From Hydrogenimonas sp. (lineage in GTDB: Bacteria > Campylobacterota > Campylobacteria > Campylobacterales > Hydrogenimonadaceae): a stretch of DNA of 32,557 nucleotides. The stretch's first letter is position 1; each line of letters starts with the position of its first letter. Positions 1 to 23,202 of this stretch are shown in pieces. The stretch is from the NCBI GenBank assembly GCA_015484905.1, contig WFUN01000044.1:1-32557 (forward strand). Reading direction: 5' to 3'. A model generated the notes under the pieces. That model did no database searches. It was not told the origin of the DNA and saw only the letters and a list, made by a program, of their open reading frames with translations. The position numbers and the translations under genes are program-made.

Positions 1-325
1 GTACAGACTTGCCAAAATAAGGGCGAAACAGGCTGCCTTGAAGGCTAAAAAAGTCGAAACTGCCCAGCGTCTCAGACTTGAGTCGCTGACGCTTGAACTC
101 GAAATTCTAAAAAAAAGGTATGCTGTACTCAAAGAGCAGGAGCTTAAAGAGCAGGAGCTCCTGGCCCTTTTTGAAGAGGGGTATAAAATGGCGCAAAGCT
201 CTCTTCTGGATCTGCTGCGCACGAAAAACGGCCTTATAGAGACTGAGAGAAAACTTCTTCAGACAATCTATCTGACAAACCTTTACAAAATAGAAATAGA
301 GTATCTGAAAGGACATAAAATATGA
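1..325 (+). CDS. TolC-like outer membrane efflux protein, C-terminal part (truncated by window start)
   Basis: Frame is open from base 2 (YRLAKIRAKQAALKAKKVETAQ...). Coiled-coil LxLExLKKRYxVLxEQE...LFEEGYKMAQSSLLDLLRTKNGLIETE is typical of TolC/CusC C-termini. Its stop overlaps the next start (ATGA at 322-325), followed by MFP and RND genes. Confidence 0.8.
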   Translation, partial: YRLAKIRAKQAALKAKKVETAQRLRLESLTLELEILKKRYAVLKEQELKEQELLALFEEGYKMAQSSLLDLLRTKNGLIETERKLLQTIYLTNLYKIEIEYLKGHKI

Positions 326-1506
326 ACAGAATTCTAATAACACTCCTACTCACCCTCGCCACTTTGAATGCAACCGGTATAGTCATAGAAAAAGCGAAAT
401 TGGAAAAATTTGGAAAACAGATGCATGTAAATGCCAAAATTGTACAGTTGAGCAACCAGAAACAGCTGATCGTATCACGCCTTGGAGGACACTTGGAGCG
501 CTACTATATCGAGCCTGGCAAAAAGGTGAAAAAGGGTGACGCAATTGCGCAGATCAAGTCACTCGAACTATCGAAAATGAGTGCGGACTATATTGCTTTT
601 GGCAAAAAGCTCACAGCTGCAAAAGCCAGATTGGCTTCTACAGAGAATCTCTACAAAAAAGGGCTCGCTTCGAAGCAGGATCTGAATCGTGAGCAGATAG
701 CATACGCATCTATCGAAGCCGACAGAAACACCCTTGCTTCACAGCTTGCATCTTTGGGTGTGAACCCCTCATCGCTTGAAAAACCGACCGACACCCTCAT
801 TATAAGGGCCCATGCCGACGGTCTTGTGAGCCGGCTTCTGGTCCCGCTTCACACCAATCTCTCGGCCGAGACACCGATAGTATCGCTGGTTCGCTCGAGT
901 GGATACTACGCCATAGCGTACATAGGCGTTGCCGAGGCTCTCAAGATGCCAAAAAAGGTCGAAGGAAGGCTAAATATAGACGGAGTAGGCTTCAAATGCC
1001 GCTACCTCTATCTACTCCCGAAGGTTGATGAAGAGACCCAGAGAGCCCAGATGCTTTTTTGGATAGAGAGCGACAAACAGCCGCTTCTTCTGAACGCATT
1101 CGCAGAGATGGAGATAAACCTTCCGCCTTTTAAAAAATATGTCGCCATAAAGCGCACCGCACTTACGATGTTCGAAGGCGAATGGGTCGTTTTTGTACCT
1201 GCCGAAGAGGGGCATGAAGAGCATGGTGAACACGAGGAACACGAGAGGCATGAGGAACATGGCGAACACGATGAACATGAAGGGAATGAGGAGCATAACG
1301 AGCACGGTGAGGAGTCCGACCACGATGAGCATGCGGAGCACTCGGAAAAAAAACCGTATGAGGTCAGAGTGGTAGAGCCTATAACAAGATTCGGCGGATA
1401 CGTTGCCGTAAAGGGAATAGAACCCGGCGAAGAGTACGTCGCGGACGGGGTATATTTCGTCAAATCTCTGATGCTCAAGTCGGAGCTCGGCGAACACGGT
1501 CATTAA
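322..1506 (+). CDS. HME-RND efflux periplasmic adaptor (membrane fusion protein) with a His/Glu-rich C-terminal segment
   Basis: Signal peptide, lipoyl/barrel-sandwich region (GGHLERYYIEPGKKVKKGDAIAQI), coiled-coil, and HEEHGEHEEHERHEEHGEHDEH tract. Lies between a TolC end and CusA. Confidence 0.9.
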   Translation: MNRILITLLLTLATLNATGIVIEKAKLEKFGKQMHVNAKIVQLSNQKQLIVSRLGGHLERYYIEPGKKVKKGDAIAQIKSLELSKMSADYIAFGKKLTAAKARLASTENLYKKGLASKQDLNREQIAYASIEADRNTLASQLASLGVNPSSLEKPTDTLIIRAHADGLVSRLLVPLHTNLSAETPIVSLVRSSGYYAIAYIGVAEALKMPKKVEGRLNIDGVGFKCRYLYLLPKVDEETQRAQMLFWIESDKQPLLLNAFAEMEINLPPFKKYVAIKRTALTMFEGEWVVFVPAEEGHEEHGEHEEHERHEEHGEHDEHEGNEEHNEHGEESDHDEHAEHSEKKPYEVRVVEPITRFGGYVAVKGIEPGEEYVADGVYFVKSLMLKSELGEHGH

Positions 1507-1516
1507 GGAGTACGAA

Positions 1517-4500
1517 ATGGAAAACTTTTTCAAGCTCCTTATACGTTACAAATTCCTGGTGGTAGCGCTCTTCGTCGCCATAGCCGGTTTCGGCTACAAG
1601 GCGTACAAAGAGATCCCGGTAGACGCTTTTCCGGACATTACACCCAAACAGGTCGTGATATATACGGAGAGTCCGGGCAATTCGGCACAGGATATCGAAA
1701 AGCTGATTACATACCCGATAGAGTCGGCGATGGCAGGACTTCCGGGTGTCAAGATGATACTCTCGAACTCCATTTTCGGTCTCTCGTACGTCTCGATCTT
1801 CTTCGAAGACAGATACGACACCTACTTCCTGCGCCAGCTCGTCACCGAACGGCTCAACAGCGTAGATATACCGCAGGGATGGGGCAAGCCTGTCATGGGA
1901 CCGAACACGACAGGTCTCGGACAGGTCTTCTGGTATCAGCTAAAGGACAACTCCGGCAAACAGGGCCTCACACGGCTCAGGGAGCTTCAGGAGTATGTGG
2001 TGGCACCGATGCTCAAGTCGGTAGACGGTGTCGAAGAGGTGATCGGATGGGGCGGCTTTAACAAACAGTACGAAGTGCTGATAGACCCCAAAAGGCTTCA
2101 GGCCGTGGATGTAACCTACGACGAGATCATCGAAGCGCTCCAAAAGGCCAACCGAAGTGCGGGCGGACAGTATCTGGAGATGAACCGTGAACAGTATCTG
2201 ATTCGCGGCAGCGGCTTCTATCAGAGTCTCGAAGATATAAAAAATACGGTTGTACGGGCCAAGGAGGCGAAAGCGGTTACGATAGGCGACATCGCCGATG
2301 TGAGAGCGGGCAGAGCACCGCGTTTCGGCGCCGTATCCATTGACGGCAAAGAGGCGATGTTCGGTATGGTCCTACAGCGCAGCGGAACGAATGCCGCAAA
2401 GGTGGTCGAACGGATAAAAGAGAAGATTCCGCTGGTTAACGCCGCACTTCCCGAAGGAGTGGAGATAGGCACGGTTTACGACCGTACCGAAATAACGCAT
2501 AAAGCGGTAAACACGATGACGAGTGCGCTTTTAAGCGGAGCCGTCCTCGTAGCTATCGTGCTCTTTCTCTTTCTCTTCGAGCTCAGAAGCGCCTTCATCG
2601 TCATACTCTCACTACCGCTTTCGCTGCTTATCGCATTTTTGCTCATGAGAGAGTACGGCATTAGCGCCAACCTGATGAGCCTTAGCGGTCTGGCGATAGC
2701 GATAGGCATGATCGTAGACGGTACTATCGTCGTGGTGGAAAACGCCTTCAGACTTCTGCACGACAAACCGGAAGCTTCGAAGATCGACATCATCGCCGAA
2801 GCTACTGCCGGCGTAGCAAAACCGGTTATATTCGCGCTGCTCATTATCGCAGCCGTATTCATTCCGCTTCTAAGCCTTGGAGGTCTGGCCGGAAAGCTCT
2901 ACACGCCGATGGCCATAGATATCGTTTTTGTCATGCTCGGCTCTCTGGCCGTGGCTATGCTGCTGGTTCCGGTGCTCAGCTACCTGCTGCTAAAACCCGC
3001 AAAACACGGTATCAGTCCGGTAATGCGCGCTATTAAAACGCTCTATCTGCCCGCTCTAAAATTCACACTTCACTATGCAAAAACGATAACCCTGCTTGCC
3101 GCACTCCTCTTCGGCGCGACGGCATGGCTTCTGAGTCAGCAGGGGCGCGAATTCATGCCCGAACTCAACGAAGAGTCGATAATGTACCGGGTCATAGGCA
3201 TACCGGGTACCGCACTGACGCAGAATATCGAAACGGCAAAAGAGATGGAGCGCTACATCCTCAAGGAGTACGGCACAGAGGTTTCGAGTGTGCTCAGCAT
3301 GATAGGCCGGAGCGAAAAGGGCGAGACCGCACAGGCCAACTACATGGAGGTGTTGCTGACTCTGAAGCCGGGAATCGAAAACCTTCCGGATCTGGCAAAA
3401 AGAATGACGCACGACCTTCAGAAGCGCTTCGGGTATGTGCAGTTCGTCCCTACACAGCCTATCGCCATGCGTATAGAGGAGCTGCTCGAAGGGGTCAAGG
3501 CGGAGCTGGCCATCAAGATATTCGGAGATGATCAGAAGGTCATGGACTCCATCGCTTCACAGATTCAAAAGGTGCTCGGCACCGTAGAGGGTCTCGAGCG
3601 CACGGAGGTGGAGACCCAGCTGGGACAGGCGCAGGTAACGATACGCCCCGACTTCCTTGCGCTTTCGCGCTACGGTATCGGCGCGGACGAGGTTATGCGC
3701 GTTATCCGTCACGGTATCGGTGAAGAGCCGGTGACCGAAAAGATAGAAGGGATCAGACGTTTCGGAATCGTGCCTAAGATAGAGGGTGCCAAAAACGATA
3801 TAGAGAATCTCGGTGCCATAATGCTTAGAAGCTCAAGCGGCAAAATGGTACGTCTGGACGAAGTGTGCGACGTCAAGGTCGTTCAGGGGCCATCTTTCAT
3901 AAAACGCGAAAACCTAAGCCGCTACATGGTCATATCTATGGATGTGGAGGGTCGTGATATCGCGTCGTTTGTCAAAGAGGCACAGCAGAAGATCGACAAA
4001 GAGGTAGATATCCCGAAAGGCTACTACACGAGATGGGCGGGAGATTTCAAAAATATGCAGGAGGCGACGAAGAGGCTGATGGTAATCATACCGATCACTA
4101 TCGTTATAGTCATCCTTCTGCTCTATACCGCTTTCAACTCGATCAAGAAATCTCTTCTTATACTGCTGGGGGTTCCTATGGGGCTTATAGGCGGGATCAT
4201 AGCGCTCGTCATGAGCGGAGAGTATCTGAGCGTTTCGGCGATTGTAGGTTTCATAGCCATATTTGCCATAGCGATTCTAAACGGAATCGTTTTGGTCAGC
4301 TTCATAGACGAGCTTAGAGAGAGATTCCCGGACGTCAAGCTCGAAACCCTGCTCAAAGACGCCGCTTCGCTGCGCCTTCGCCCAGTGCTCATGACAGCGT
4401 TCACGACGCTTTTCGGCATTCTGCCGCTTCTGTATGCCACTGGAGTGGGAAGTGAGATACAGTATCCGCTGGCTGTAGTCGTCACTGGAGGTATAATCAG

Positions 4501-4570
4501 CTCTACACTCCTTACACTGCTGGTGTTACCGGCGCTCTACCTGCTCTTTTACAAAAAGGAGCATAAATAA
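1517..4570 (+). CDS. CusA/CzcA-family heavy-metal efflux RND transporter, 1017 aa
   Basis: VDAFPDITPKQVVIYTESPGNSAQDIEKLITYPIE, GMIVDGTIVVVEN in TM4, full RND length. Confidence 0.95.
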   Translation: MENFFKLLIRYKFLVVALFVAIAGFGYKAYKEIPVDAFPDITPKQVVIYTESPGNSAQDIEKLITYPIESAMAGLPGVKMILSNSIFGLSYVSIFFEDRYDTYFLRQLVTERLNSVDIPQGWGKPVMGPNTTGLGQVFWYQLKDNSGKQGLTRLRELQEYVVAPMLKSVDGVEEVIGWGGFNKQYEVLIDPKRLQAVDVTYDEIIEALQKANRSAGGQYLEMNREQYLIRGSGFYQSLEDIKNTVVRAKEAKAVTIGDIADVRAGRAPRFGAVSIDGKEAMFGMVLQRSGTNAAKVVERIKEKIPLVNAALPEGVEIGTVYDRTEITHKAVNTMTSALLSGAVLVAIVLFLFLFELRSAFIVILSLPLSLLIAFLLMREYGISANLMSLSGLAIAIGMIVDGTIVVVENAFRLLHDKPEASKIDIIAEATAGVAKPVIFALLIIAAVFIPLLSLGGLAGKLYTPMAIDIVFVMLGSLAVAMLLVPVLSYLLLKPAKHGISPVMRAIKTLYLPALKFTLHYAKTITLLAALLFGATAWLLSQQGREFMPELNEESIMYRVIGIPGTALTQNIETAKEMERYILKEYGTEVSSVLSMIGRSEKGETAQANYMEVLLTLKPGIENLPDLAKRMTHDLQKRFGYVQFVPTQPIAMRIEELLEGVKAELAIKIFGDDQKVMDSIASQIQKVLGTVEGLERTEVETQLGQAQVTIRPDFLALSRYGIGADEVMRVIRHGIGEEPVTEKIEGIRRFGIVPKIEGAKNDIENLGAIMLRSSSGKMVRLDEVCDVKVVQGPSFIKRENLSRYMVISMDVEGRDIASFVKEAQQKIDKEVDIPKGYYTRWAGDFKNMQEATKRLMVIIPITIVIVILLLYTAFNSIKKSLLILLGVPMGLIGGIIALVMSGEYLSVSAIVGFIAIFAIAILNGIVLVSFIDELRERFPDVKLETLLKDAASLRLRPVLMTAFTTLFGILPLLYATGVGSEIQYPLAVVVTGGIISSTLLTLLVLPALYLLFYKKEHK

Positions 4571-4680
4571 CTGACGTTATGTAAAAAGCGTCATCCCATT
4601 TCGAAACTTTTGGGAGTGCAGGGGACAATAAGCCCCTGCCAAAAAATGGGCTTTGTTCATCTTTTGTGTAACATCGGTAA
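4570..4680 (+). repeat. Copy A of a dispersed multi-hairpin intergenic element (diverged)
   Basis: GCAGGGG(acaataag)CCCCTGC, then AAAAAATGGGC(TTT)GTTCATCTTTT, then GTAACATCGGTAA. Same order of blocks as copies B and C. Confidence 0.7.
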
Positions 4681-4701
4681 ATAACAATACTTCTGCGGTG
4701 G

Positions 4702-4707
4702 TATAAT
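4702..4707 (+). promoter_or_regulatory. Probable extended -10 of polX (TGGTATAAT)
   Basis: TGnTATAAT 27 nt before the polX ATG, with AGGAG SD in between. Confidence 0.6.
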
Positions 4708-4733
4708 TGTAAAAACCGCCATAGGAGTTAAAA

Positions 4734-6452
4734 ATGGCCCTCTCCAACAGTGAAATAGCCGATATCTTCAACCAGATGGCCGATATGCTGGAGATAAAAG
4801 GGGAAAATCCTTTCAAGGTACGTGCATATCGCAATGCGGCAAGAACGGTACAAAATCTCGGCAAAAGCCTTGAAGATCTTGTAGAGAGCGGCATGGACCT
4901 TACGAAACTTCCTGGAATAGGAGCCGATCTTTCAGATGCCATTGCCGAGATTCTAAAAACCAGGAAGTTCTCCAAACTCGAGGCACTTAAAAAAGAGCTG
5001 CCTCCCGGGTTAGACAAACTCCTATCCATAGAGGGGCTTGGACCCAAACGTATAAGACAGCTCTACGATACATTCGGCATAACATCGCTTGAAGAGTTGG
5101 CCGAAGCGGCCAAAAGCGGAGAGATATACAGCCTAAAAGGATTCGGCCCCAAACTTGTAGAGAAGATTCTAAAGGGTATTCAACTGGCCAAAAAGGCGGG
5201 ACGCCGCTTCCGATTCGATGTAGCCAAACCGTTTGCGGAAGAGTTGAAAAACTATCTGCGGAGCTTCGAAGGTGTCCTAAAGGTGGAGGTGGCAGGCAGC
5301 TACCGGCGAAGAAAAGAGACGGTGGGAGATCTGGACATTCTGGTAGTGGCGAAAAACTGGGAAGCTGTAACGGAGTGGTTCGTAAAATACGAAAAGATAA
5401 AAGAGGTGGTCTCCAAAGGTCCCACCCGCTCGACGGTGATTCTGCGAAACGATCTGCAAGTAGACTTAAGAAGCGTCGCGAAAGAGAGCTACGGCTCGGC
5501 TCTTCACTATTTTACCGGTTCAAAGGCACACAATATAAAAATAAGAAAAATGGCGATAGAGAAAGGGTGGAAAATAAACGAATACGGAGTCTTTGAAAAA
5601 GAGAAAAGGCTTGGCGGCTCTACCGAAAAGGAGCTTTATGAAATGCTCGGGCTTCACTATATAGAACCGGAGCTCCGGGAGGATCGTGGTGAGATAGAGG
5701 CGGCATTACAGGGGAATCTGCCAAGACTCGTGAAGCTTAACGATATCAGAGGCGATCTTCATATCCATACCAAATGGACAGACGGTCACGCTACGATAGA
5801 ACAGATGGCTGAAGCGGCGAAAAAGAGAGGTTATGACTACATCGCCGTTACCGACCATTCGCACCATCTTACAGTCGCCAAAGGACTGGATGAAAAACGC
5901 CTGAGAGAACAGATGGAACTCATAGACAGCATCAATGAGGAGCTTGAGGGTATCACGGTTTTAAAGGGAATTGAATGCGATATTCTCGAAGATGGAACCA
6001 TGGATCTTCCAGATTCTGTGCTAAAAGAGCTGGATCTGGTAATAGGGGCTGTACATTATAAATTCAACTTCTCCAAACAAGAGCAGACAAAACGGATCGT
6101 AAAAGCGCTGCAGAATCGATATCTGAATATTCTGGCCCATCCTACGGGACGTATCATAGGTCACAGAAACGCATACGAACTTGAGATGTCGGAAATTTTC
6201 AGAGTATGCAAAAACGAGGGAGTGTTTATGGAAATAAACGCACAGCCTGAACGACTGGATCTAAACGACATCTATATCAAAGCGGCCAAAGAAGATGGCA
6301 TAAAATTCTGCATATCTACAGACGCACATGACCAGATGAGTCTTGATTTTATGGAATACGGGGTAAATCAGGCACGTCGAGGATGGGTAGAAAAAGAGGA
6401 TCTTGTAAACACAAAAAGTGTTGAAGAGCTCAAAAAAGTGTTGAAAAGATAG
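4734..6452 (+). CDS. polX: DNA polymerase/3'-5' exonuclease PolX (bacterial polX + PHP domain)
   Basis: HhH region (LPGIGADLSDAIAEI), nucleotidyltransferase GSYRRRKETVGDLDILV, PHP motifs DLHIHTKWTDG, VTDHSHH, ILAHPTGR, STDAHD. Confidence 0.95.
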   Translation: MALSNSEIADIFNQMADMLEIKGENPFKVRAYRNAARTVQNLGKSLEDLVESGMDLTKLPGIGADLSDAIAEILKTRKFSKLEALKKELPPGLDKLLSIEGLGPKRIRQLYDTFGITSLEELAEAAKSGEIYSLKGFGPKLVEKILKGIQLAKKAGRRFRFDVAKPFAEELKNYLRSFEGVLKVEVAGSYRRRKETVGDLDILVVAKNWEAVTEWFVKYEKIKEVVSKGPTRSTVILRNDLQVDLRSVAKESYGSALHYFTGSKAHNIKIRKMAIEKGWKINEYGVFEKEKRLGGSTEKELYEMLGLHYIEPELREDRGEIEAALQGNLPRLVKLNDIRGDLHIHTKWTDGHATIEQMAEAAKKRGYDYIAVTDHSHHLTVAKGLDEKRLREQMELIDSINEELEGITVLKGIECDILEDGTMDLPDSVLKELDLVIGAVHYKFNFSKQEQTKRIVKALQNRYLNILAHPTGRIIGHRNAYELEMSEIFRVCKNEGVFMEINAQPERLDLNDIYIKAAKEDGIKFCISTDAHDQMSLDFMEYGVNQARRGWVEKEDLVNTKSVEELKKVLKR

Positions 6453-6560
6453 ATTTCTACCTGCAGACGAACGATATTTATTACCAAAAACAGACACTCT
6501 TACACAACTCTTGCACGATAACTATTTACAATTGAGACAAGTATACATATAACTTCAAAG

Positions 6561-6623
6561 GGTCTCGGAAAAAGAAATGTAAACAGTCGGCTTCTTTTTT
6601 GACCTTTCGGTTGAAGGCTGTTT
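6561..6623 (+). promoter_or_regulatory. Candidate leader with two mutually exclusive hairpins upstream of the Cu ATPase
   Basis: GGTC..AAAAAGAA (6561-6576) pairs TTCTTTTT.GACC (6592-6604). AAACAGT..CTTC (6581-6594) pairs GAAGGCTGTTT (6613-6623). The arms overlap. Confidence 0.35.
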
Positions 6624-6679
6624 CAAAACTTACTGGATAGGGAAACGAACATATAGATATGGTACTAAAAGGAGAAAAA

Positions 6680-8815
6680 ATGAGCCATAGACGTCATAAA
6701 CATCCGAAACGTTCGGCAAAAACCGAACAGCCGGAGCATATGGATCATCCTGAACACGAGAAAAAGAGTGATAAAACGAAAAGCGCCCCACACTCGCACG
6801 AAACCGGTGAAATGGAGGGGATGAGTCATGATAGCCACAAAAATCATGGAGGAGGACATGATCACACTACTGCAGGCCAAATGCACCATATGAAAGATAT
6901 GAAACGGCGTTTTATCGTATCTGTTATCATTACGATTCCTATATTGTTGCTCTCGCCAATGATTCAACAGTGGTTCGGCTTCACAATCGATATTCCATAT
7001 CGGGAAGGGATTATATTCGCTCTGGCCACTTTTATCTACCTGTATGGCGGCAAACCTTTTTTGACAATGATGATAGGCGAGATCAGATCCAAGAAACCGG
7101 GAATGATGACACTTATCTCCATGGCAATCAGCGTTGCATATTTCTATTCTGCAATGACGCTCGTAATGCCTGGAGGCAAAGAGTTTTTCTGGGAACTCGC
7201 CACACTTATCGACATTATGCTCATAGGGCACTACATTGAAGCCAAAAGTGTTCTTGGAGCTGCCAACGCACTCGAAGAGCTTGTAAAGATGATGCCCAAA
7301 ACCGCAATGCGTGTCAAAGCGGACGGGCAGCTTGAAGAGGTTGGAGTGGACCAACTGAAGAAAGAAGACATCATTCTGGTTCGCCCCGGTGAGAAGATTC
7401 CGGCCGACGGAAAAGTTGTAGAAGGCGAAAGTATGACCGATGAAGCCTTCTTGACCGGTGAGTCAAAACCGGTTTACAAAAAACCGGGCAGTGATGTTTT
7501 TATGGGAAGTACCAATATAGACGGGGCTCTTCGGATCAAAATAACCAAAAGCGGCGAAGAGAGCTATCTTTCACAGGTAATCGAGCTGGTCAAAGAGGCA
7601 CAACAGAGCCGCTCCAAAACCCAGGATCTGGCCAACAGGGCCGCGGCATGGCTCTTTTATGCCGCAACCGCAATTGGTGCGGTCACATTTGCCGTCTGGG
7701 CTGCAATTGCGTCACAGATGGATGCCGTGCTTAGAAGTGTCACCGTACTTATAATCGCATGTCCGCATGCGCTTGGCCTCGCTGTACCTCTCGTAGTGGC
7801 GATATCCACTTCAATCGCCGCACGAAAAGGAATTTTAATACGAAACAGACAGGCGTTTGAGACATTGAAAGATATAGATGCCATCTGTTTCGACAAAACC
7901 GGCACAATAACCGAAGGAAAGCTTTCGGTAAGCGATGTAATAGCTCTTGAAAACGAATCTACAATACTTCTGTACGCTGCTTCTATCGAACAAAATTCCG
8001 AACATATAATTGCAAAAGCGATCGTAAATTATGCAAAAACCAAAAATGTAAAGCCGATAAAGGCAGATGATTTTATCGCTTTTCCGGGAATAGGCGCAAA
8101 GGCTGTGGTAGACGGACATACCATAATGGTTGGAGGACCTCAGATACTATCGAAAGAGTCTCTGACTCTGCCTGAAGAGCTCAAAAAATATGAGGAGAGT
8201 GAATCTACCAAAGTATGGGTCGTTGTCGATGGCAGAATCGTAGGGGTCATACTTCTCAAAGATACGGTACGGAAAACATCAGCGGAGGCTATAAAAACTC
8301 TTAAAGAACTTGGAATAGAGACATGGATGCTTACCGGCGACAATGAAGCGGTAGCGAAAGACGTAGCCTCAAAGACCGGCATAGATCACTTTGAAGCGAA
8401 TCTCCTGCCAGATCAAAAACTCAAGATCATCAAAAAGATACATGACAGCGGCAAGATCGTCGCGATGGTTGGCGACGGTATAAACGATGCACCCTCACTT
8501 CTTACTGCGGATATAGGAATAGCAATCGGAGCGGGTACGGACATAGCAATCGAGAGCGCCGACATTATATTGACAAAAAGCGATCTTTACAGTGTGGTCC
8601 CTGCGATCCGTCTCAGTCGGGCAACATACAAGAAGATGGTGCAAAATCTTTGGTGGGCAAGCGGATACAATATAGTCGCCATACCTCTTGCAGCTGGAGT
8701 TATGGCACCATGGGGAATAATTATCGATCCAGCCATTGGAGCGGTTCTTATGTCGGTAAGTACAGTAGTGGTAGCACTCAATGCTCAACTTCTAAAAAGA
8801 GCGTCAATAGAGTAA
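6680..8815 (+). CDS. copB: Copper-translocating P1B-type ATPase, CopB-like (CPH motif), His-rich N-terminus, no HMA domain
   Basis: IIACPHALGLAVPL, DKTGTITEGK, MLTGDNEAVAKDVA, VGDGINDAPSL. N-terminal His/Met-rich tail. ATG 6680 has an AAAGGAG SD; the ORF-track start at 6659 is in frame but lacks one. Confidence 0.93.
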   Translation: MSHRRHKHPKRSAKTEQPEHMDHPEHEKKSDKTKSAPHSHETGEMEGMSHDSHKNHGGGHDHTTAGQMHHMKDMKRRFIVSVIITIPILLLSPMIQQWFGFTIDIPYREGIIFALATFIYLYGGKPFLTMMIGEIRSKKPGMMTLISMAISVAYFYSAMTLVMPGGKEFFWELATLIDIMLIGHYIEAKSVLGAANALEELVKMMPKTAMRVKADGQLEEVGVDQLKKEDIILVRPGEKIPADGKVVEGESMTDEAFLTGESKPVYKKPGSDVFMGSTNIDGALRIKITKSGEESYLSQVIELVKEAQQSRSKTQDLANRAAAWLFYAATAIGAVTFAVWAAIASQMDAVLRSVTVLIIACPHALGLAVPLVVAISTSIAARKGILIRNRQAFETLKDIDAICFDKTGTITEGKLSVSDVIALENESTILLYAASIEQNSEHIIAKAIVNYAKTKNVKPIKADDFIAFPGIGAKAVVDGHTIMVGGPQILSKESLTLPEELKKYEESESTKVWVVVDGRIVGVILLKDTVRKTSAEAIKTLKELGIETWMLTGDNEAVAKDVASKTGIDHFEANLLPDQKLKIIKKIHDSGKIVAMVGDGINDAPSLLTADIGIAIGAGTDIAIESADIILTKSDLYSVVPAIRLSRATYKKMVQNLWWASGYNIVAIPLAAGVMAPWGIIIDPAIGAVLMSVSTVVVALNAQLLKRASIE

Positions 8816-17111: not shown

Positions 17112-17261
17112 ATTTATCTCCTTCCAAATGTTCCACACCTTTTTTTGGCGCCACGGATCGTATAAATGGCCAACAAGGCGGATCTACGGCTGCAACATAA
17201 AATCTCTCATATCGAAACAGAGAACGCTGGTTTTCGAAATAAAATAGGGGTCAGTAAAAGA

Positions 17262-17567
17262 TTAAACTGTTTTTGGAGGTATAAAAGGCGGTTTTAAAGG
17301 TCTATCTTTGAAATTCAGGAGGTAAGAGAAGTGTAGTTTGGAGCCCAATTCGGCAATGAGCGGGTTTTCTATCTGCTCATTGAGTGCAAGCATATGAAAA
17401 GCCTGGTGCTCTACCGTCACTACATTCGTATTTAGATGCTGTGTATAAAGATGTACGGATGTATCTGCCGGTATGGCGTCATGCTGTCCCGTTATATAGT
17501 CGTGCATAACGAAACAGACCATGAACAGCAGCATGATTTTGCTTACAAGATGCCTGACTCTTCTCAT
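17262..17567 (-). CDS. Small His-containing membrane/secreted protein, 101 aa, unknown function
   Basis: Hydrophobic N-terminus, His-rich middle (HDYITGQHD...HLYTQH...EHQAFH), C-terminal RPLKPPFIPP. Located upstream of the RND operon. Confidence 0.55.
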   Translation of the reverse strand: MRRVRHLVSKIMLLFMVCFVMHDYITGQHDAIPADTSVHLYTQHLNTNVVTVEHQAFHMLALNEQIENPLIAELGSKLHFSYLLNFKDRPLKPPFIPPKTV

Positions 17568-17573
17568 GCGACA

Positions 17574-17579
17574 AGTATA
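17574..17579 (-). promoter_or_regulatory. Extended -10-like TGTTATACT exactly 6 nt before ATG
   Basis: Minus strand TGTTATACT-TGTCGC-ATG. Confidence 0.45.
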
Positions 17580-17892
17580 ACAGAAAAAAGTTTTCCACAG
17601 TGGTCAAAAAAGGTGCTAAATACTATATTTAAATAATCTTTAAGCAGCAGGAAGCCTGTATCTTTTTCAAAAATTTGCTCAAAAGAGCGATCTTCACACC
17701 GTTCACACGTCCCGCTGTTTTTCTCCAAAAAGTCTCTTTGGCACCCATTTTCAATCTATTGGCTCTATTGCCGATGTGGCAAAGTTGGCAAGATCGGTCC
17801 GAAGAGCAATCTACAGGTTTAAGCGGCGGCAGGGCGCACATATAGTGCCAAATTCAAGGTTCGGTCCGGATTATAGGTAACGGGGCGATTTA

Positions 17893-18192
17893 CTAAAACG
17901 CTCCCTTGTTTCTAAGCTCGGCTATCTCCGTCTCGACCATAGCGTCTATCATCTGCTTGTAGATGTCGGCTACCATGTTCGGAGATACACCGAGAGTGAG
18001 CGCCTTATGGCGGACATGGTTCAAAACATCCTCTATCCGCTCGTCCGCCTTTATCTCATCTACCGTATGTTTAAAATGTGCAGCCTGTTTTATGTAGTCG
18101 TTGCGCACCGCTATGAGCTCAACTATCTTCTCGTCGACCTTGTCCACCTCTTTGCGCAGCTCTTCAAGGGTTTTACACTCTTTCACTTTCAT
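17893..18192 (-). CDS. Chorismate mutase (AroQ/PchB class), 99 aa
   Basis: LRKEVDKVDEKIVELIAVRNDYIKQAAHFK...ADERIEDVLNHVRHKALTLGVSPNMVADIYKQMIDAMVETEIAE. Confidence 0.85.
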   Translation of the reverse strand: MKVKECKTLEELRKEVDKVDEKIVELIAVRNDYIKQAAHFKHTVDEIKADERIEDVLNHVRHKALTLGVSPNMVADIYKQMIDAMVETEIAELRNKGAF

Positions 18193-18301
18193 ATTTTCAA
18201 ACCTCTCTCGATATTATTACGGGGCTATGGAGCCACGGGGACGCTTTTTCACCCCGCCGATTCCCTACTCGACCAAAAATCCGCTTAACGATCAGTTACA
18301 A

Positions 18302-18499
18302 TCAGCATATTTTATCCAAAAACTCCCCACTTTCGCGGTAGCGCCTGAACTCTTCGTAGAGCTCACCGCACTCACAGCTCTCCATAACACCGTTTCTGAT
18401 ATCTTCGACCATTTCGACAAGCGACCGGCTAAGATCGTCGATCTGAAAAACTCTATATTCGTCGCCTTCAAGCTCATAAGCGCTGCAAGCGCCCTGCAA
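18302..18499 (-). CDS. Small acidic Cys-containing protein, 65 aa; diverged paralog of 18668-18943, start uncertain (TTG)
   Basis: EYRVFQIDDLSRSLVEMVEDIRNGVMESCECGELYEEFRRYRESGE aligns with the C-terminal half of the neighbouring ORF. No ATG before the upstream in-frame TAA. Confidence 0.5.
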   Translation of the reverse strand: MQGACSAYELEGDEYRVFQIDDLSRSLVEMVEDIRNGVMESCECGELYEEFRRYRESGEFLDKIC

Positions 18500-18523
18500 A
18501 AAAGAGAAGATCGCCGTTTATGC

Positions 18524-18649
18524 AACTGATTTTACGCAGAAAGCGTAAAATCATCTCGAAATCTTGGATTTCGTAGCTTCAGGGGGTTGTAGGGCCGCAC
18601 AGGCCCTGCCAAATTACGGGCTTTGCCCGGAATTTGCGTAACATCAGTT
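18524..18649 (+). repeat. Copy B of the multi-hairpin element (best preserved)
   Basis: Closing stem AACTGAT/ATCAGTT. TGATTTTACGC(AGAAA)GCGTAAAATCA, CGAAATC(TTG)GATTTCG, AGGGCC(GCACA)GGCCCT, AAATTaCGGGC(TTT)GCCCGgAATTT. Confidence 0.85.
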
Positions 18650-18667
18650 ATGTACGTTTCGAGCTTT

Positions 18668-18943
18668 TCACACGCCTTCACTTCCCCCTTCGGATTCGAT
18701 CATTTTGACCAGCTCTTTATATATCTCAGAGCACTCCTCTTCGCTCACATCGTTATCTTCTATATCGCTCAAAAGCGCCAAAAAGGAGCTTCTTAGCTCC
18801 TGCAGCTCGGCGTATTCGGCTTTCGAATCCTCGTTTGCCTCTTTAGCTTCGGCAATCTCTTCGAAGAGCTCGTCGATCATCTCTTCCACATCGGGAATCA
18901 CTTCTATCTCGAGCAGTTCTTTAAGATCTTCACATCCCGCCAT
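18668..18943 (-). CDS. Small acidic protein, 91 aa, unknown function, flanked by inverted copies of the element
   Basis: ATG with AAGGAT SD. Very Glu/Asp-rich, helical composition, VSEEECSEIYKELVKMIESEG. Confidence 0.7.
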   Translation of the reverse strand: MAGCEDLKELLEIEVIPDVEEMIDELFEEIAEAKEANEDSKAEYAELQELRSSFLALLSDIEDNDVSEEECSEIYKELVKMIESEGGSEGV

Positions 18944-18954
18944 GATTCATCCTT

Positions 18955-19078
18955 CTTATTATGTTACTCCTTTTGCGGGCAAAGCCCGCAAAAGGGCAGG
19001 GACTAAAGTCCCTACAACCCCCTAAAGCTTTGAAATCTCTGATTTCAAGAGAGCGTTACGCTTTCTCTGCAACCTCGG
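18955..19078 (-). repeat. Copy C of the multi-hairpin element (opposite orientation to A and B)
   Basis: Minus-strand reading: AGAAAGCGTAA, TTGAAATC(AGA)GATTTCAA, AGGGGGTTGTAGGGACTTTAGTCCCTGC, CCTTTTGCGGGC loop GCCCGCAAAAGG (12-bp perfect), GTAACAT. Confidence 0.85.
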
Positions 19079-19140
19079 TTTGAGCTTGAAGTCGGCTCCT
19101 ACAAAACTATACCATAAAACGACACCCCCAGCCGCTTCGC

Positions 19141-20958
19141 TCAACCTGCTCCGGCCCTCTCTGCAAGCTTGCGGCAGAGCTTCAAAAACGGCTCTGCGAA
19201 GCGCTCCATCTTCACCTCGGCGATTCCGTTTATCTCGAGCATCTGCTCTTCGTTTTGCGGCAGCACTTCAGCCATCTGCAGAAGGGTTTTGTCACTGAAA
19301 ACCATATAGGCCGGCACACCCTTTTCGTCGGCTATCTCTCTTCTTAGCTTTCTGAGTTCATCGAATATCTCCATGTCGCATCCCGCCGGCAGGATCTCTT
19401 TGCGCTTTTTGGCTCCGGTGCGCCTCTTTGTCTCCATTCTCGACGGCTTTATATCGACACTCTTTTTACCTTTGAGAATCTCGGCGCCCTCATGCGTTAT
19501 AAGCAGGTTTGCGTGCTCTCCGCGCATCAAAGCCCCGATCTCCATGAGCCGCTGCACCACCGCATCCCACTGCTCTTTGCGCAGATTGGTGCCTATGCCG
19601 TAAACACTGAGCCTCTCGTGGCCGAACTGCTTTATCTTTCTGTTTTCGCTTTTGCGCAAAATGTCTATTATATGGTTTTTGCCGAAACTCTGCGAAGTGC
19701 GGTAGACGGCGGAAAGAAGCTGCCTCGCCTCTGTCGTGATATCGAGCCTGCCGCCGGCCGGAGCCGTGCAGTTGTCGCAGTTGCTTCCGCAAGGCTCCAT
19801 CGTCTCACCGAAATATTCGGCAAGCTGCATGTGGCGGCACGACTCGCTCTGGCTGAAGTTGACCATCTTTTCCAGTTTTCTGAAAGCGTTTTGCTTGTAG
19901 CTGCCGTCATCAAGGGCCTCTATAAGCGAAACGCGCTGCGCCGCATCCGCGGCACTGTAAAGAAGAAGCGTCTCGCTGGACAGTCCGTCGCGGCCGGCCC
20001 GGCCGATCTCCTGGTAGTAGCTCTCGAGCGTCTTGGGCATACTCATATGCACGACAAAACGTATATTCGATTTGTCTATTCCCATTCCAAACGCCACGGT
20101 AGCCACTATCACATCGGTCTCGTCGTGCACGAAGGCGTGGTAGGCGGCGCTTCGCTCATCCGCGCCCAGACCCGCATGGTAGGCCATGGCCCTCACCCCT
20201 TCACCTTTCAAAAAGGCGGCAAGCGTCTCGGTGCTCTTGCGCGTAAAGGTGTAGACGATGCCGCTCTCCCCTTCAAAGCGCGAGAGAAACTCGAGAAGCT
20301 GCCTCTTTCCGTCGCCACTTCTGGGCTCGGCTCTTACAAGCAGATTCTCTCTGTAGACCGAACCGCGAAGCCTCACGGGTGAATCGAGCCCGAGCTGTCT
20401 CGCGATATCCTCTTCCACCTGCGGCGTAGCCGTCGCCGTAAATGCGGAGACTGGGGTCTTTGGAAAAAGCTCTTTGAGAAGGTGCAGGCGCCTGTAATCT
20501 TCCCTGAACTCGTGCCCCCACTCGCTTACGCAGTGCGCCTCGTCTATGACGAACGACGCCAATGGGATCCCCTTCAGAAGCTCCACGAAGCCGGGTGAGC
20601 TGAAGCGCTCCGGAGCGACATAGAGCAGTTTGATCCGCGCATTGCGAAGCCTCCCCATGATCTCGGCGATCTGCGCGCCGCTTTGCATGGAGCCTATCAT
20701 CTCGGCTTCGACCCCCTGAAGTTTCAGGGCTCTTACCTGGTCATGCATAAGCGCCAACAGAGGGGAGACAACGACGGTGACACCCTCTTTAAGCAGCGCC
20801 GGAAGCTGGTAGCAAAGAGACTTTCCGCCGCCGGTAGGAAGCACCATGAGCAGGTCTCTGCCCGAAAGGAGCGCTTCGACGGCATCTTTTTGAAGGGGCC
20901 TGAAACCGCTATGACCGAAAACGTGTTTCAGCACCTCGAGAGTATCCTCTTTTTGCAA
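19141..20958 (-). CDS. recQ: ATP-dependent DNA helicase RecQ
   Basis: FGHSGFRPLQKDAVEALLSGRDLLMVLPTGGGKSLCYQLPAL, DEAHCVSEWGH, RQC Zn motif CxxxxxxxxxxxxxCxxxCDNC, HRDC domain. TTG 20958 has an AAGGAG SD; the N-terminal extension to 21051 lacks RecQ similarity. Confidence 0.95.
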   Translation of the reverse strand: MQKEDTLEVLKHVFGHSGFRPLQKDAVEALLSGRDLLMVLPTGGGKSLCYQLPALLKEGVTVVVSPLLALMHDQVRALKLQGVEAEMIGSMQSGAQIAEIMGRLRNARIKLLYVAPERFSSPGFVELLKGIPLASFVIDEAHCVSEWGHEFREDYRRLHLLKELFPKTPVSAFTATATPQVEEDIARQLGLDSPVRLRGSVYRENLLVRAEPRSGDGKRQLLEFLSRFEGESGIVYTFTRKSTETLAAFLKGEGVRAMAYHAGLGADERSAAYHAFVHDETDVIVATVAFGMGIDKSNIRFVVHMSMPKTLESYYQEIGRAGRDGLSSETLLLYSAADAAQRVSLIEALDDGSYKQNAFRKLEKMVNFSQSESCRHMQLAEYFGETMEPCGSNCDNCTAPAGGRLDITTEARQLLSAVYRTSQSFGKNHIIDILRKSENRKIKQFGHERLSVYGIGTNLRKEQWDAVVQRLMEIGALMRGEHANLLITHEGAEILKGKKSVDIKPSRMETKRRTGAKKRKEILPAGCDMEIFDELRKLRREIADEKGVPAYMVFSDKTLLQMAEVLPQNEEQMLEINGIAEVKMERFAEPFLKLCRKLAERAGAG

Positions 20959-21090
20959 TATTGCGCTCCTTGAACCGGCTTCACAACCACGGATTTTTCC
21001 ATCTTTGCGATACCTTTTATATAAAAAGAGAACGAAGCACCCGACTGTCACCGCAGCGAGACTTGCGGGAGCGAGTCGAACGAAAGCCGG

Positions 21091-21128
21091 CTGAAAATCG
21101 CGCTGCCAAGGTAGTCAGCGATTTTCAG
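21091..21128. repeat. 11-bp perfect inverted repeat CTGAAAATCGC...GCGATTTTCAG in the recQ/lepB divergent intergenic region
   Basis: 21091-21101 and 21118-21128, 16-nt loop. Confidence 0.6.
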
Positions 21129-21280
21129 GCTTTTGTCGACGTTTTAAAGGGCGCGGAGCACTTGTCGAGAGAGGATGACAGCCAGGTGTTTCTTTCATTC
21201 TTATTTGGCGTTATATGAGCTGCATTATACCATCTGCACCCGTGCGGCAGAGTTTTACCGCGGCCAAAGCGGCAACTCTT

Positions 21281-21286
21281 TACAAT
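21281..21286 (+). promoter_or_regulatory. -10-like TACAAT exactly 6 nt before the lepB-like ATG
   Basis: TACAAT-ATAACC-ATG. Confidence 0.4.
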
Positions 21287-21292
21287 ATAACC

Positions 21293-21952
21293 ATGCAGCT
21301 AAAAAAGATAGTCGTACCTGTTTTGGCACTCTTTGCCGTCACCGCATTCGTGCGCATCTACAAAGTTACCGACATAAGCATGAACTATACGCTCATCGAA
21401 GGTGACTACGTAATAGTAGACAACTTCTGTGCCGGAATACACGTTCCTTCGTGGCTCTTTTTCATAGACGCCCACATCTACAGCCGTGAAGAGGGAATCG
21501 ATCGCGGCGATCTTCTGGCTTTCAGGCACCCGCTCGAAAAACGGCTCTATCTCAAAAGGTGCGTAGCTCTTCCCGGCGACAGACTCTTTTTACGAAAGAA
21601 AAACCTCTATCTCCAGCTAAAAGGCGACTCCGAAGCCACCTGCCGCTACGCGAAAAGAAACAGAATCGAAACCTACCTCGACGAAGAGGGGTGCTGGTTG
21701 AAAAACCCCTATGCGAAATTTTACGACATAAAACATATAGAGGGAATCAAAGGTCCCAAAGAGCTTATAGAGTACCCGAAAACCACAATCCCCCCGCACA
21801 GCTACTTCTTCATGGGCGACTTTCGGGACAACTCGACAGACAGCCGCTTTTTCGGCCCCGTCCCTTACGACATGATCTACTATAAAGTCCGCTTCGTCGT
21901 AAAAAAGGCGCGAAGCCTCGAAGAGCTGGGAGCGATTAGAAATATAGAGTGA
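21293..21952 (+). CDS. lepB: Signal peptidase I (S26 family, LepB-like)
   Basis: ISMNYTLIEGDYVIVDNF (Ser box), RLYLKRCVALPGDRL (Lys box), MGDFRDNSTDSRFFGPVP. Confidence 0.85.
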   Translation: MQLKKIVVPVLALFAVTAFVRIYKVTDISMNYTLIEGDYVIVDNFCAGIHVPSWLFFIDAHIYSREEGIDRGDLLAFRHPLEKRLYLKRCVALPGDRLFLRKKNLYLQLKGDSEATCRYAKRNRIETYLDEEGCWLKNPYAKFYDIKHIEGIKGPKELIEYPKTTIPPHSYFFMGDFRDNSTDSRFFGPVPYDMIYYKVRFVVKKARSLEELGAIRNIE

Positions 21953-22068
21953 TCCTGCCCGATAACGCACCGATCCGATCTTGAAAATATCTCGCTTGTA
22001 CCTTATTGCCTTACCAGCCTTGGTTATTGGTTTATGAAAATTTTACAATATGGCGCACTCGAAAATCT

Positions 22069-23202
22069 CTAATCACAACAAGACTCTTTTTTTTGTAAAA
22101 AGTATGGGCTGATAACATACCACAATATGAGAACCCACAGCAAAATTGACGAAAGTGTGCTCAACCAGCTCCCCTCCTCTTTCAGATTTATGACCGAACG
22201 CGGATCTATCTGCATCGAGTCGAAAAAAAAGTCGAGAACGACACCAAACAATATGGCACCGATAACTATTGTCAGCAGATATATTACCAAAGAGCGGTTT
22301 CCCAGCATCTTCTTTACAACTCCGATAGTCACAGTATTTGTAGCCGGCCCTGCACTGAGAAATACGAAAGCGGCACCAAGACTTACACCACTTAGAACCA
22401 ATGAAGCCGCTATTGGAAGGCTTGCCGTGGCACATACATACATAGGAACGGCTATAACTATGACAAACAGGTAGCCTATCCATGAATAACCACTCAGCCA
22501 CTCCCCAATATTTTCCGGAATTGCCACGGTAATGGCCGCACCGACAAGAAGCCCGAAAAACAGCGGTCTGGCGATATCGCTCATAAGTGTTACAAACCCG
22601 TAACGCATGGCACTTTCAAAAGAGAATCCTGATCTCTTATTCGCAGAGCTCTCTTCTTCGCATTCACATCCGCAACCTTCCGAAACGGTTCTATCACTAT
22701 TCGTAACCGTCTGTGAAAAGCCGGAAGATTTCGTACTGCAGGTATTTACAGAGGGCAAACTCTCTTTTGTCTTTGCACTTTCACAAGAGTCGCTATCTGT
22801 AAAGTTGCTAAGTATCCCGGCTGCAAAAGCTATAATTATGGATGTAACCACTCTGTAGAGCGTGAAAATCCAGCCAAACATTCCGTATGTCGCAAGAATG
22901 GAGTCAACACCGGTTATCGGAGTGGATATCAAAAAACTGAGTACCGATCCGCGACTGGCTCCCTCCTTTTTCAATGATGCGGCAAGAGGAATAACACCGC
23001 ATGAACAGACCGGAAGCGGTATACCGAAAAGTGTCGATTTCAGAACGGACAAAACATTGTCACACCCCAGATGCTTTTGTATAAAATTTTTTGGAAGCCA
23101 TTCATGCAAAATTCCTGCGAAAAAGAGACCTAAAACGATATACAAAGCCATAGCGCCCGTCAGTTCCCACAAAGTTTCGAAAAAGAGTATCACCGAATCC
23201 AA
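22069..23202 (-). CDS. Permease of the DUF318/ArsP_1 family, likely SO_0444-type Cu/Zn efflux transporter
   Basis: PVCSCGVIPLAASLKKEGASRGSVLSFLISTPITGVDSI...LSAGPATNTVTIGV. Cys-rich cytosolic loop SEGCGCECEEE. TTG start with AAGGAT SD. Confidence 0.82.
   Translation of the reverse strand: MDSVILFFETLWELTGAMALYIVLGLFFAGILHEWLPKNFIQKHLGCDNVLSVLKSTLFGIPLPVCSCGVIPLAASLKKEGASRGSVLSFLISTPITGVDSILATYGMFGWIFTLYRVVTSIIIAFAAGILSNFTDSDSCESAKTKESLPSVNTCSTKSSGFSQTVTNSDRTVSEGCGCECEEESSANKRSGFSFESAMRYGFVTLMSDIARPLFFGLLVGAAITVAIPENIGEWLSGYSWIGYLFVIVIAVPMYVCATASLPIAASLVLSGVSLGAAFVFLSAGPATNTVTIGVVKKMLGNRSLVIYLLTIVIGAILFGVVLDFFFDSMQIDPRSVINLKEEGSWLSTLSSILLWVLILWYVISPYFLQKKESCCD

Follow-up and report, generated by a model that had tools for sequence, protein, structure and literature searches.

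A mobile, structured intergenic element of Campylobacterota with a conserved interior and a sense bias in mRNA leaders

Related miniature elements

The BOX elements of Streptococcus pneumoniae are non-autonomous, structured, intergenic sequences with terminal repeats and modular, tandem internal units, which are transcribed with neighbouring genes and are likely parasitic (PMC3049150). ERIC, a 127-bp MITE of Enterobacteria, is palindromic and intergenic, varies widely in copy number and has effects on transcripts (PMC10969869). These two are the nearest analogues of the Campylobacterota MITE described here, which resembles each of them in the features just named, ERIC also in size. However, no sequence relation to BOX is seen, and the Campylobacterota element differs from BOX in having a fixed 7-bp target duplication, a phylum-wide core with covarying hairpins, a pronounced preference for the sense orientation immediately ahead of Shine-Dalgarno sites, and tandem units that are whole elements. 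From ERIC it differs in host group and, judged by its ends and duplication length, presumably also in family. Among insertion sequences, the ISPepr1 subgroup of IS4 is characterized by 7–8 bp repeats, 5'-CT ends and AT-rich targets (PMC2266710).

The family itself was found undescribed in Rfam, in the literature searched, and in phage and plasmid collections. The sequence-only reading had assigned no known family, and Rfam 15 returned none at gathering score, whether the query was the window or a diverged relative; the candidates were sub-threshold noise only, RsmY at 18 bits being one example. No match to the element turned up in the collections of phages and plasmids, and a viral origin was discarded when three IMG/VR pattern matches turned out to be one identical unrelated sequence, the longer core pattern giving none.

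Copies in the window and across the phylum

The window, that is, the whole 32,557-nt stretch of Hydrogenimonas DNA analysed, contains three homologous copies, A, B and C (Table 1), whose places and strands had been read correctly from the sequence; a covariance model built from the three (R1) scores B at 144 bits, C at 129 and A at 99. Folding against dinucleotide shuffles gives z values of -6.3 for B, -5.7 for C and -2.8 for A. Their homology is not due to chance, as dozens of family copies occur in several relatives with E values down to 1e-34. The same blocks had been proposed to recur in the same order in all copies, and this holds as homology, but the GAAATC..GATTTC hairpin is missing from copy A, whose blocks are diverged. 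The limits of the element also had to be redrawn: it was correctly placed, but the element proper runs from CTGA to TCAG, beyond which the adjoining bases belong to target duplications. The proposed closing stem AACTGAT...ATCAGTT of copy B proves to be a near-perfect terminal inverted repeat of 14 bp, AACTGATTTTACGC / GCGTAACATCAGTT.

Table 1. Features of the three copies in the window, and of two further MITEs sharing their ends
Feature	Position (window, unless a locus is given)	Strand	Basis or remark
Copy B, element proper CTGATTTTACGC...GCGTAACATCAG, 122 bp	18526..18647	+	Covariance-model match; ends set by duplication register and empty site
Left target duplication of B, TTATGCA	18518..18524	.	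Flanks; extra A at 18525, may be a changed 8-bp duplication
Right target duplication of B, TTATGTA	18648..18654	.	Flanks
Terminal repeat and hairpin 1 of B	18526..18553	+	5' arm pairs with GCGTAAAATCA or 3' terminal repeat
Hairpin 2 of B, CGAAATC TTG GATTTCG	18557..18573	+	Arms vary by lineage, pairing kept
Nearly invariant core of B, (T)AGCTTCAGGGGGTT, between hairpins 2 and 3	18574..18588	+	AGCTT[T/C]AGGGGG in nearly all sampled representatives
Hairpin 3 of B, GTAGGGCC ... GGCCCTGC	18589..18609	+	Folding, covariation
Hairpin 4 of B, CAAATT.CGGGC TTT GCCCG.AATTTG	18610..18636	+	Folding, covariation
3' terminal inverted repeat of B, CGTAACATCAG	18637..18647	+	Flank and duplication register
Copy C	about 18958..19078	-	Covariance-model match; stretch 18648-21018, aligned with G001/G006, contains copy C
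91-aa AF0941-like gene, copy C in leader	18668..18943	-	PF14591, 8e-6
Copy A, diverged, 107 bp, hairpin 2 lost	4571..4677	+	Covariance-model match
Left target duplication of A, TAAATAA	4564..4570	.	Perfect, 7/7
Right target duplication of A, TAAATAA	4678..4684	.	Perfect, 7/7
165-bp MITE, G002	L101:11733-11897, L112:1800-1964, L117:1354-1518, L118:532-696
269-bp MITE, G008	L287:14174-14442 and seven further G008 places, e.g. C1:456262-456530, 1281100-1281368

The insertion of copy A falls on the stop codon that ends the RND pump gene 1517-4570, and its left duplication includes this codon. Metal-efflux genes occupy 322-8815 and 22069-23202 of the window, namely an RND adaptor and pump, a copper-type P-ATPase and an SO_0444-family Cu/Zn exporter. 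Copy C is sense-oriented, with its 3' end about 15 nt upstream of the start codon of the AF0941-like gene. It occupies the same site in the Hydrogenimonas genomes G001 (JALWMA01) and G006 (WFYC01, Hydrogenimonas sp. S141_77), and a flanking duplication is no longer present; copy C is older than copy B.

In the 1.84-Mb assembly of the window, R1 matches only A, B and C; the search for further copies thus failed in the host's own assembly and succeeded amply in relatives. Positions 17250-22005 of the window are 84–95% identical to G001 and G006, against about 71–73% elsewhere on the contig and 71–74% for addA (27–30 kb, at the protein level) and for another contig, and probably reflect, to judge from these identities, homologous recombination between Hydrogenimonas species. 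Because of this difference, B and C would sit in a segment recently exchanged from a copy-rich relative, in a host that is otherwise almost copy-free. Copy A is an independent insertion. Mis-binning of the contig was rejected, as the single-copy addA on the same contig is 71% identical to that of G001 and G006.

The R1 search of 60 relatives found at least 57 copies each in G001, G002, G006 and G008, which belong to the genus of the window, and in G050, and 44 copies in G043; relatives without a copy include G005 and G010. G008 is a complete Hydrogenimonas genome, with 93 copies in 2.16 of its 2.25 Mb (96%). A scan of named genomes adds Sulfurimonas, Sulfuricurvum, Sulfurovum, Sulfurospirillum and Arcobacter; the core-motif loci of Campylobacterota match the model, and matches from other phyla were set aside as chance, none reaching a model score of weight. 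A class-wide search with a broader model, in which at most 11 candidates per genome were scored, found the family in 43 of 298 genomes. Copy number reaches about 100 per genome and is concentrated in some lineages, with absence from others and near-absence in sister species. The family has multiplied separately in several lineages. Weak R2 matches of about 38 bits, with identical scores at 2–3 places per genome, were seen in family f10 (G063, G069, G117, G222 and others); these are doubtful, and a different repeat, for example rRNA, may be what the model matched there.

Ends, target duplications and mobilization

The element is about 105–145 bp long, has no coding capacity and occurs in many dispersed copies. 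Its terminal inverted repeats are CTGACGTTACGC...GCGTAACATCAG, with the left end CTGACCTTACGCACT.. in Sulfurimonas, and comparison of the flanks revealed direct repeats just outside CTGA..TCAG. Over 210 distinct copies, the left and right flanks agree solely in register 7, and across just those seven positions: perfect 7-bp duplications surround 22 copies against 0.4 expected when partners are shuffled, and duplications of at least 6/7 surround 43 against 2.6. The target is AT-rich and resembles TTANTAA. Duplications of 8 bp occur occasionally, as at L112, where TTAGGATA stands on both sides, and copy B fits 7 + 1. The site of copy B is empty in G001 and G006, at 94–95% identity around it, G006 reading CGCCGT-TTATGTA-CGTTTC where the window reads CGCCGT-TTATGCA-A-(element)-TTATGTA-CGTTTC. 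The family is therefore mobile, and the earlier suggestion of a MITE is sustained by the fixed 7-bp target duplications, the empty sites and the terminal inverted repeats of a short, non-coding, multicopy sequence. An autonomous partner sharing these ends was not found in the 96% of G008 that was read; such a partner supports MITE status but is inessential to it, as partners are often lost.

Tandem arrays have a 120-bp spacing, and two dimers carry perfect duplications at their outer ends, so that dimers move as units. A tandem pair with 92-bp spacing and no terminal repeats lies just before a start codon (L207:4036-4218), and the core and hairpins alone can therefore be duplicated. At the opposite extreme of size, L222:5149-5187 is a 39-bp mini-element, CTGATATTACGCACTTTT-TAT-AAAAGTGTGTAAAGTCAG, barely more than both ends.

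Two further MITEs carry the same ends. The first, of 165 bp in G002, has the ends CTGACCTTACGCAAA..TTTGCGTAAGGTCAG and does not share the core; one copy shows a perfect 8-bp duplication, TTAGGATA, and another a perfect 7-bp one. The second, of 269 bp in G008, is near-palindromic, and all eight copies found by pattern have perfect 7-bp duplications, from which its recent activity follows. Since both lack the core, the ends alone seem enough for mobilization. A search of 96% of G008, tolerating two mismatches per end, gave no long element bounded by these ends, and a 1.4-kb end pair in L222 was rejected as an autonomous element, being the mini-element plus a coincidence in coding sequence.

In its 7–8 bp duplications, 5'-CT ends and AT-rich target preference the MITE agrees with the IS4 subgroup ISPepr1. 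However, the ISPepr1 end consensus YT-AA-YTT agrees with the MITE ends just partly, and no such transposase is present in copy-rich genomes, DDE_Tnp_1 genes being absent from G001, G002, G008, G012 and G016. The IS4-type transposases with DDE_Tnp_1 matches in other genomes lack these ends and were rejected as partners. ISPepr1-like, IS4-type mobilization is thus only a lead, not an assignment.

Interior, orientation and the place of the RNA

The interior was surveyed in 66 representatives of less than 80% identity. The core, UAGCUUUAGGGGGUUGUAGGG, is nearly invariant, and AGCUU(U/C)AGGGGG..G(U/C)AGGG hardly varies among these representatives, which were partly collected via the core motif, unlike the R1 matches in G050, G033 and G004. 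Hairpins 2 and 4 replace whole arms, as in GAAATC/GATTTC, CCCGCAT/ATGCGGG and CACAAAG/CTTTGTG, or CACTATAATGGGC/GCTCATTATAGTG and CAAATTACGGGC/GCCCGGAATTTG. In an alignment of 45 of the 66, pairing holds in 92.7% of cells, with a covariation score of 0.462 against 0.191 ± 0.010 for shuffled alignments and 0.07–0.11 for slid structures, and pairing is lost when copies exchange arms (z 13.8 and 14.8). The covariation expected of the proposed structure is thus present, and strong, in this larger alignment. A strand test of G-U against A-C pairs (93:21 versus 131:61 shuffled) points in the sense-RNA direction but is driven by few columns and so is no proof. Template switching at the DNA level is another possible source of covariation in long perfect palindromes. 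Constraint acts on the interior: hairpins 2, 3 and 4 stay paired around a nearly invariant core that is single-stranded. When copy B is folded to minimum energy, the 5' terminal-repeat arm pairs with the internal GCGTAAAATCA to form hairpin 1; the closing stem and hairpin 1 are alternatives, because both compete for this one arm. RNAalifold also pairs the core GGGGG with CCCU, as an alternative to hairpin 3.

Orientation relative to genes is biased beyond chance. In G008, a start codon preceded by a Shine-Dalgarno site lies within 30 nt of the 3' end (sense) in 34 of 93 copies, and a start codon within 30 nt of the 5' end (antisense) in 4 (34 versus 4, p 6e-7); near starts, the sense to antisense ratio is 13:1 in G002 and 16:2 in Sulfurimonas and other loci from named genomes. 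Sense copies in leaders typically end 10–30 nt ahead of the start codon, right before the ribosome-binding site, and antisense copies near start codons lie further away. Tandem arrays occupy sense leaders in 12 of 16 cases and antisense leaders in none, compared with 44 and 12 of 147 single copies (Fisher p 6e-4 for arrays versus singles), several of the arrays having been fetched for being tandem and not for their context. Contexts are mixed overall, about half of the copies lying outside sense leaders and some between convergent genes. The genes behind the copies have no common theme and are unrelated housekeeping genes; 30 downstream proteins in G008 are of unrelated types, including metE, dapF, ilvE-like, transaldolase, gatC, uvrA and peroxiredoxin. 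An interpretation as pure leader RNA beginning at the transcription start, prompted by -10-like flanks, was dropped when the gene contexts proved mixed and the duplications appeared; many of these flanks are probably explained by the AT-rich target. The possibility of a structured RNA, raised from the sequence, is thus upheld at the level of structure only, through the strong covariation and the sense bias in leaders.

Taken as a whole, these observations are very probably explained by a Campylobacterota MITE that is putatively moved in trans by a DDE transposase, has a constrained interior and is sense-biased in leaders. The current model proposes that a trans-acting DDE transposase recognizes the shared ends and moves the MITE by staggered cutting, insertion at AT-rich, TTANTAA-like sites duplicating 7 bp and sometimes 8; the same enzyme would have moved the unrelated 165-bp and 269-bp MITEs. 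Copies in leaders would be transcribed, and their folded sense RNA would be tolerated or useful there, either by keeping the ribosome-binding site open or through an effect on translation or mRNA stability, with antisense leader copies being removed. On the most parsimonious reading, the MITE is selfish, and its sense RNA is one that mRNA leaders can accommodate and may even benefit from, an RNA-level property of the MITE probably being selected.

It could be argued, with a plausibility that falls somewhat short of even, that the sense bias is a survival filter only and that the core is conserved because mobilization needs it. An antisense copy would place the strong reverse complement of hairpin 1 beside the Shine-Dalgarno site and be purged, in agreement with the greater distance of antisense copies from starts, the unrelated downstream genes and a predicted ribosome-site accessibility that drops from 0.53 in the natural orientation to 0.485 when the element is inverted (p 0.04). 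This gain is small, however, and neither the apparent sufficiency of the ends in the two core-less MITEs nor the greater leader enrichment of arrays over singles fits this reading. A more tentative proposal is that the conserved core makes the element a mobile plug-in module of mRNA leaders, adopted by dozens of genes per genome, or that its RNA aids mobilization; as a plug-in, it could for instance act as a ribosome-standby or translation/stability element based on the anti-Shine-Dalgarno-like UAGCUUUAGGGGGGUG, with tandem copies giving a stronger effect. Unlikely, in turn, is a cis-regulatory RNA of riboswitch or leader type that was spread by selection, with mobility secondary or absent. 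Strong covariation around an invariant core, the sense bias 10–30 nt upstream of start codons in three independent genome sets, the leader arrays, which recall tandem riboswitches, and the complementarity, by sequence inspection, of the core UAGCUUUAGGGGGGUG to the 16S anti-Shine-Dalgarno would all suit it, but the target duplications and empty sites, the lack of a common theme downstream, the half of the copies that lie elsewhere and the near-absence in sister species speak against it. REP mobilization by Y1 (HUH) transposases is not known to make target duplications, and a REP/REPIN-type repeat mobilized by RAYT, which had been suggested by GTAG beside a GGG..CCC hairpin and would share the palindromic, intergenic, multi-copy character of the family, is highly improbable, because the fixed 7-bp duplications are present and Y1_Tnp does not track copies (one RAYT-sized gene each in several genomes, none in copy-rich G001 and G016, yet present in copy-free G005 and G010), and GTAG is no free tetranucleotide but the base of hairpin 3 itself (GUAGGG/CCCUGC).

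In the Campylobacterota MITE, strong sense bias in leaders is combined with an interior that is deeply conserved and covaries, which makes it a clear and, for a MITE, unusual case; ecologically important vent and sulfur-oxidizing bacteria carry up to about 100 copies of it per genome. Its copies are insertion markers for population genomics, and they carry a warning for RNA-motif discovery, as a transposon can produce both covariation and a 5'-UTR position. They also raise the question of whether bacterial MITEs supply ready-made regulatory RNA leaders, which is testable in cultivable Hydrogenimonas and Sulfurimonas.
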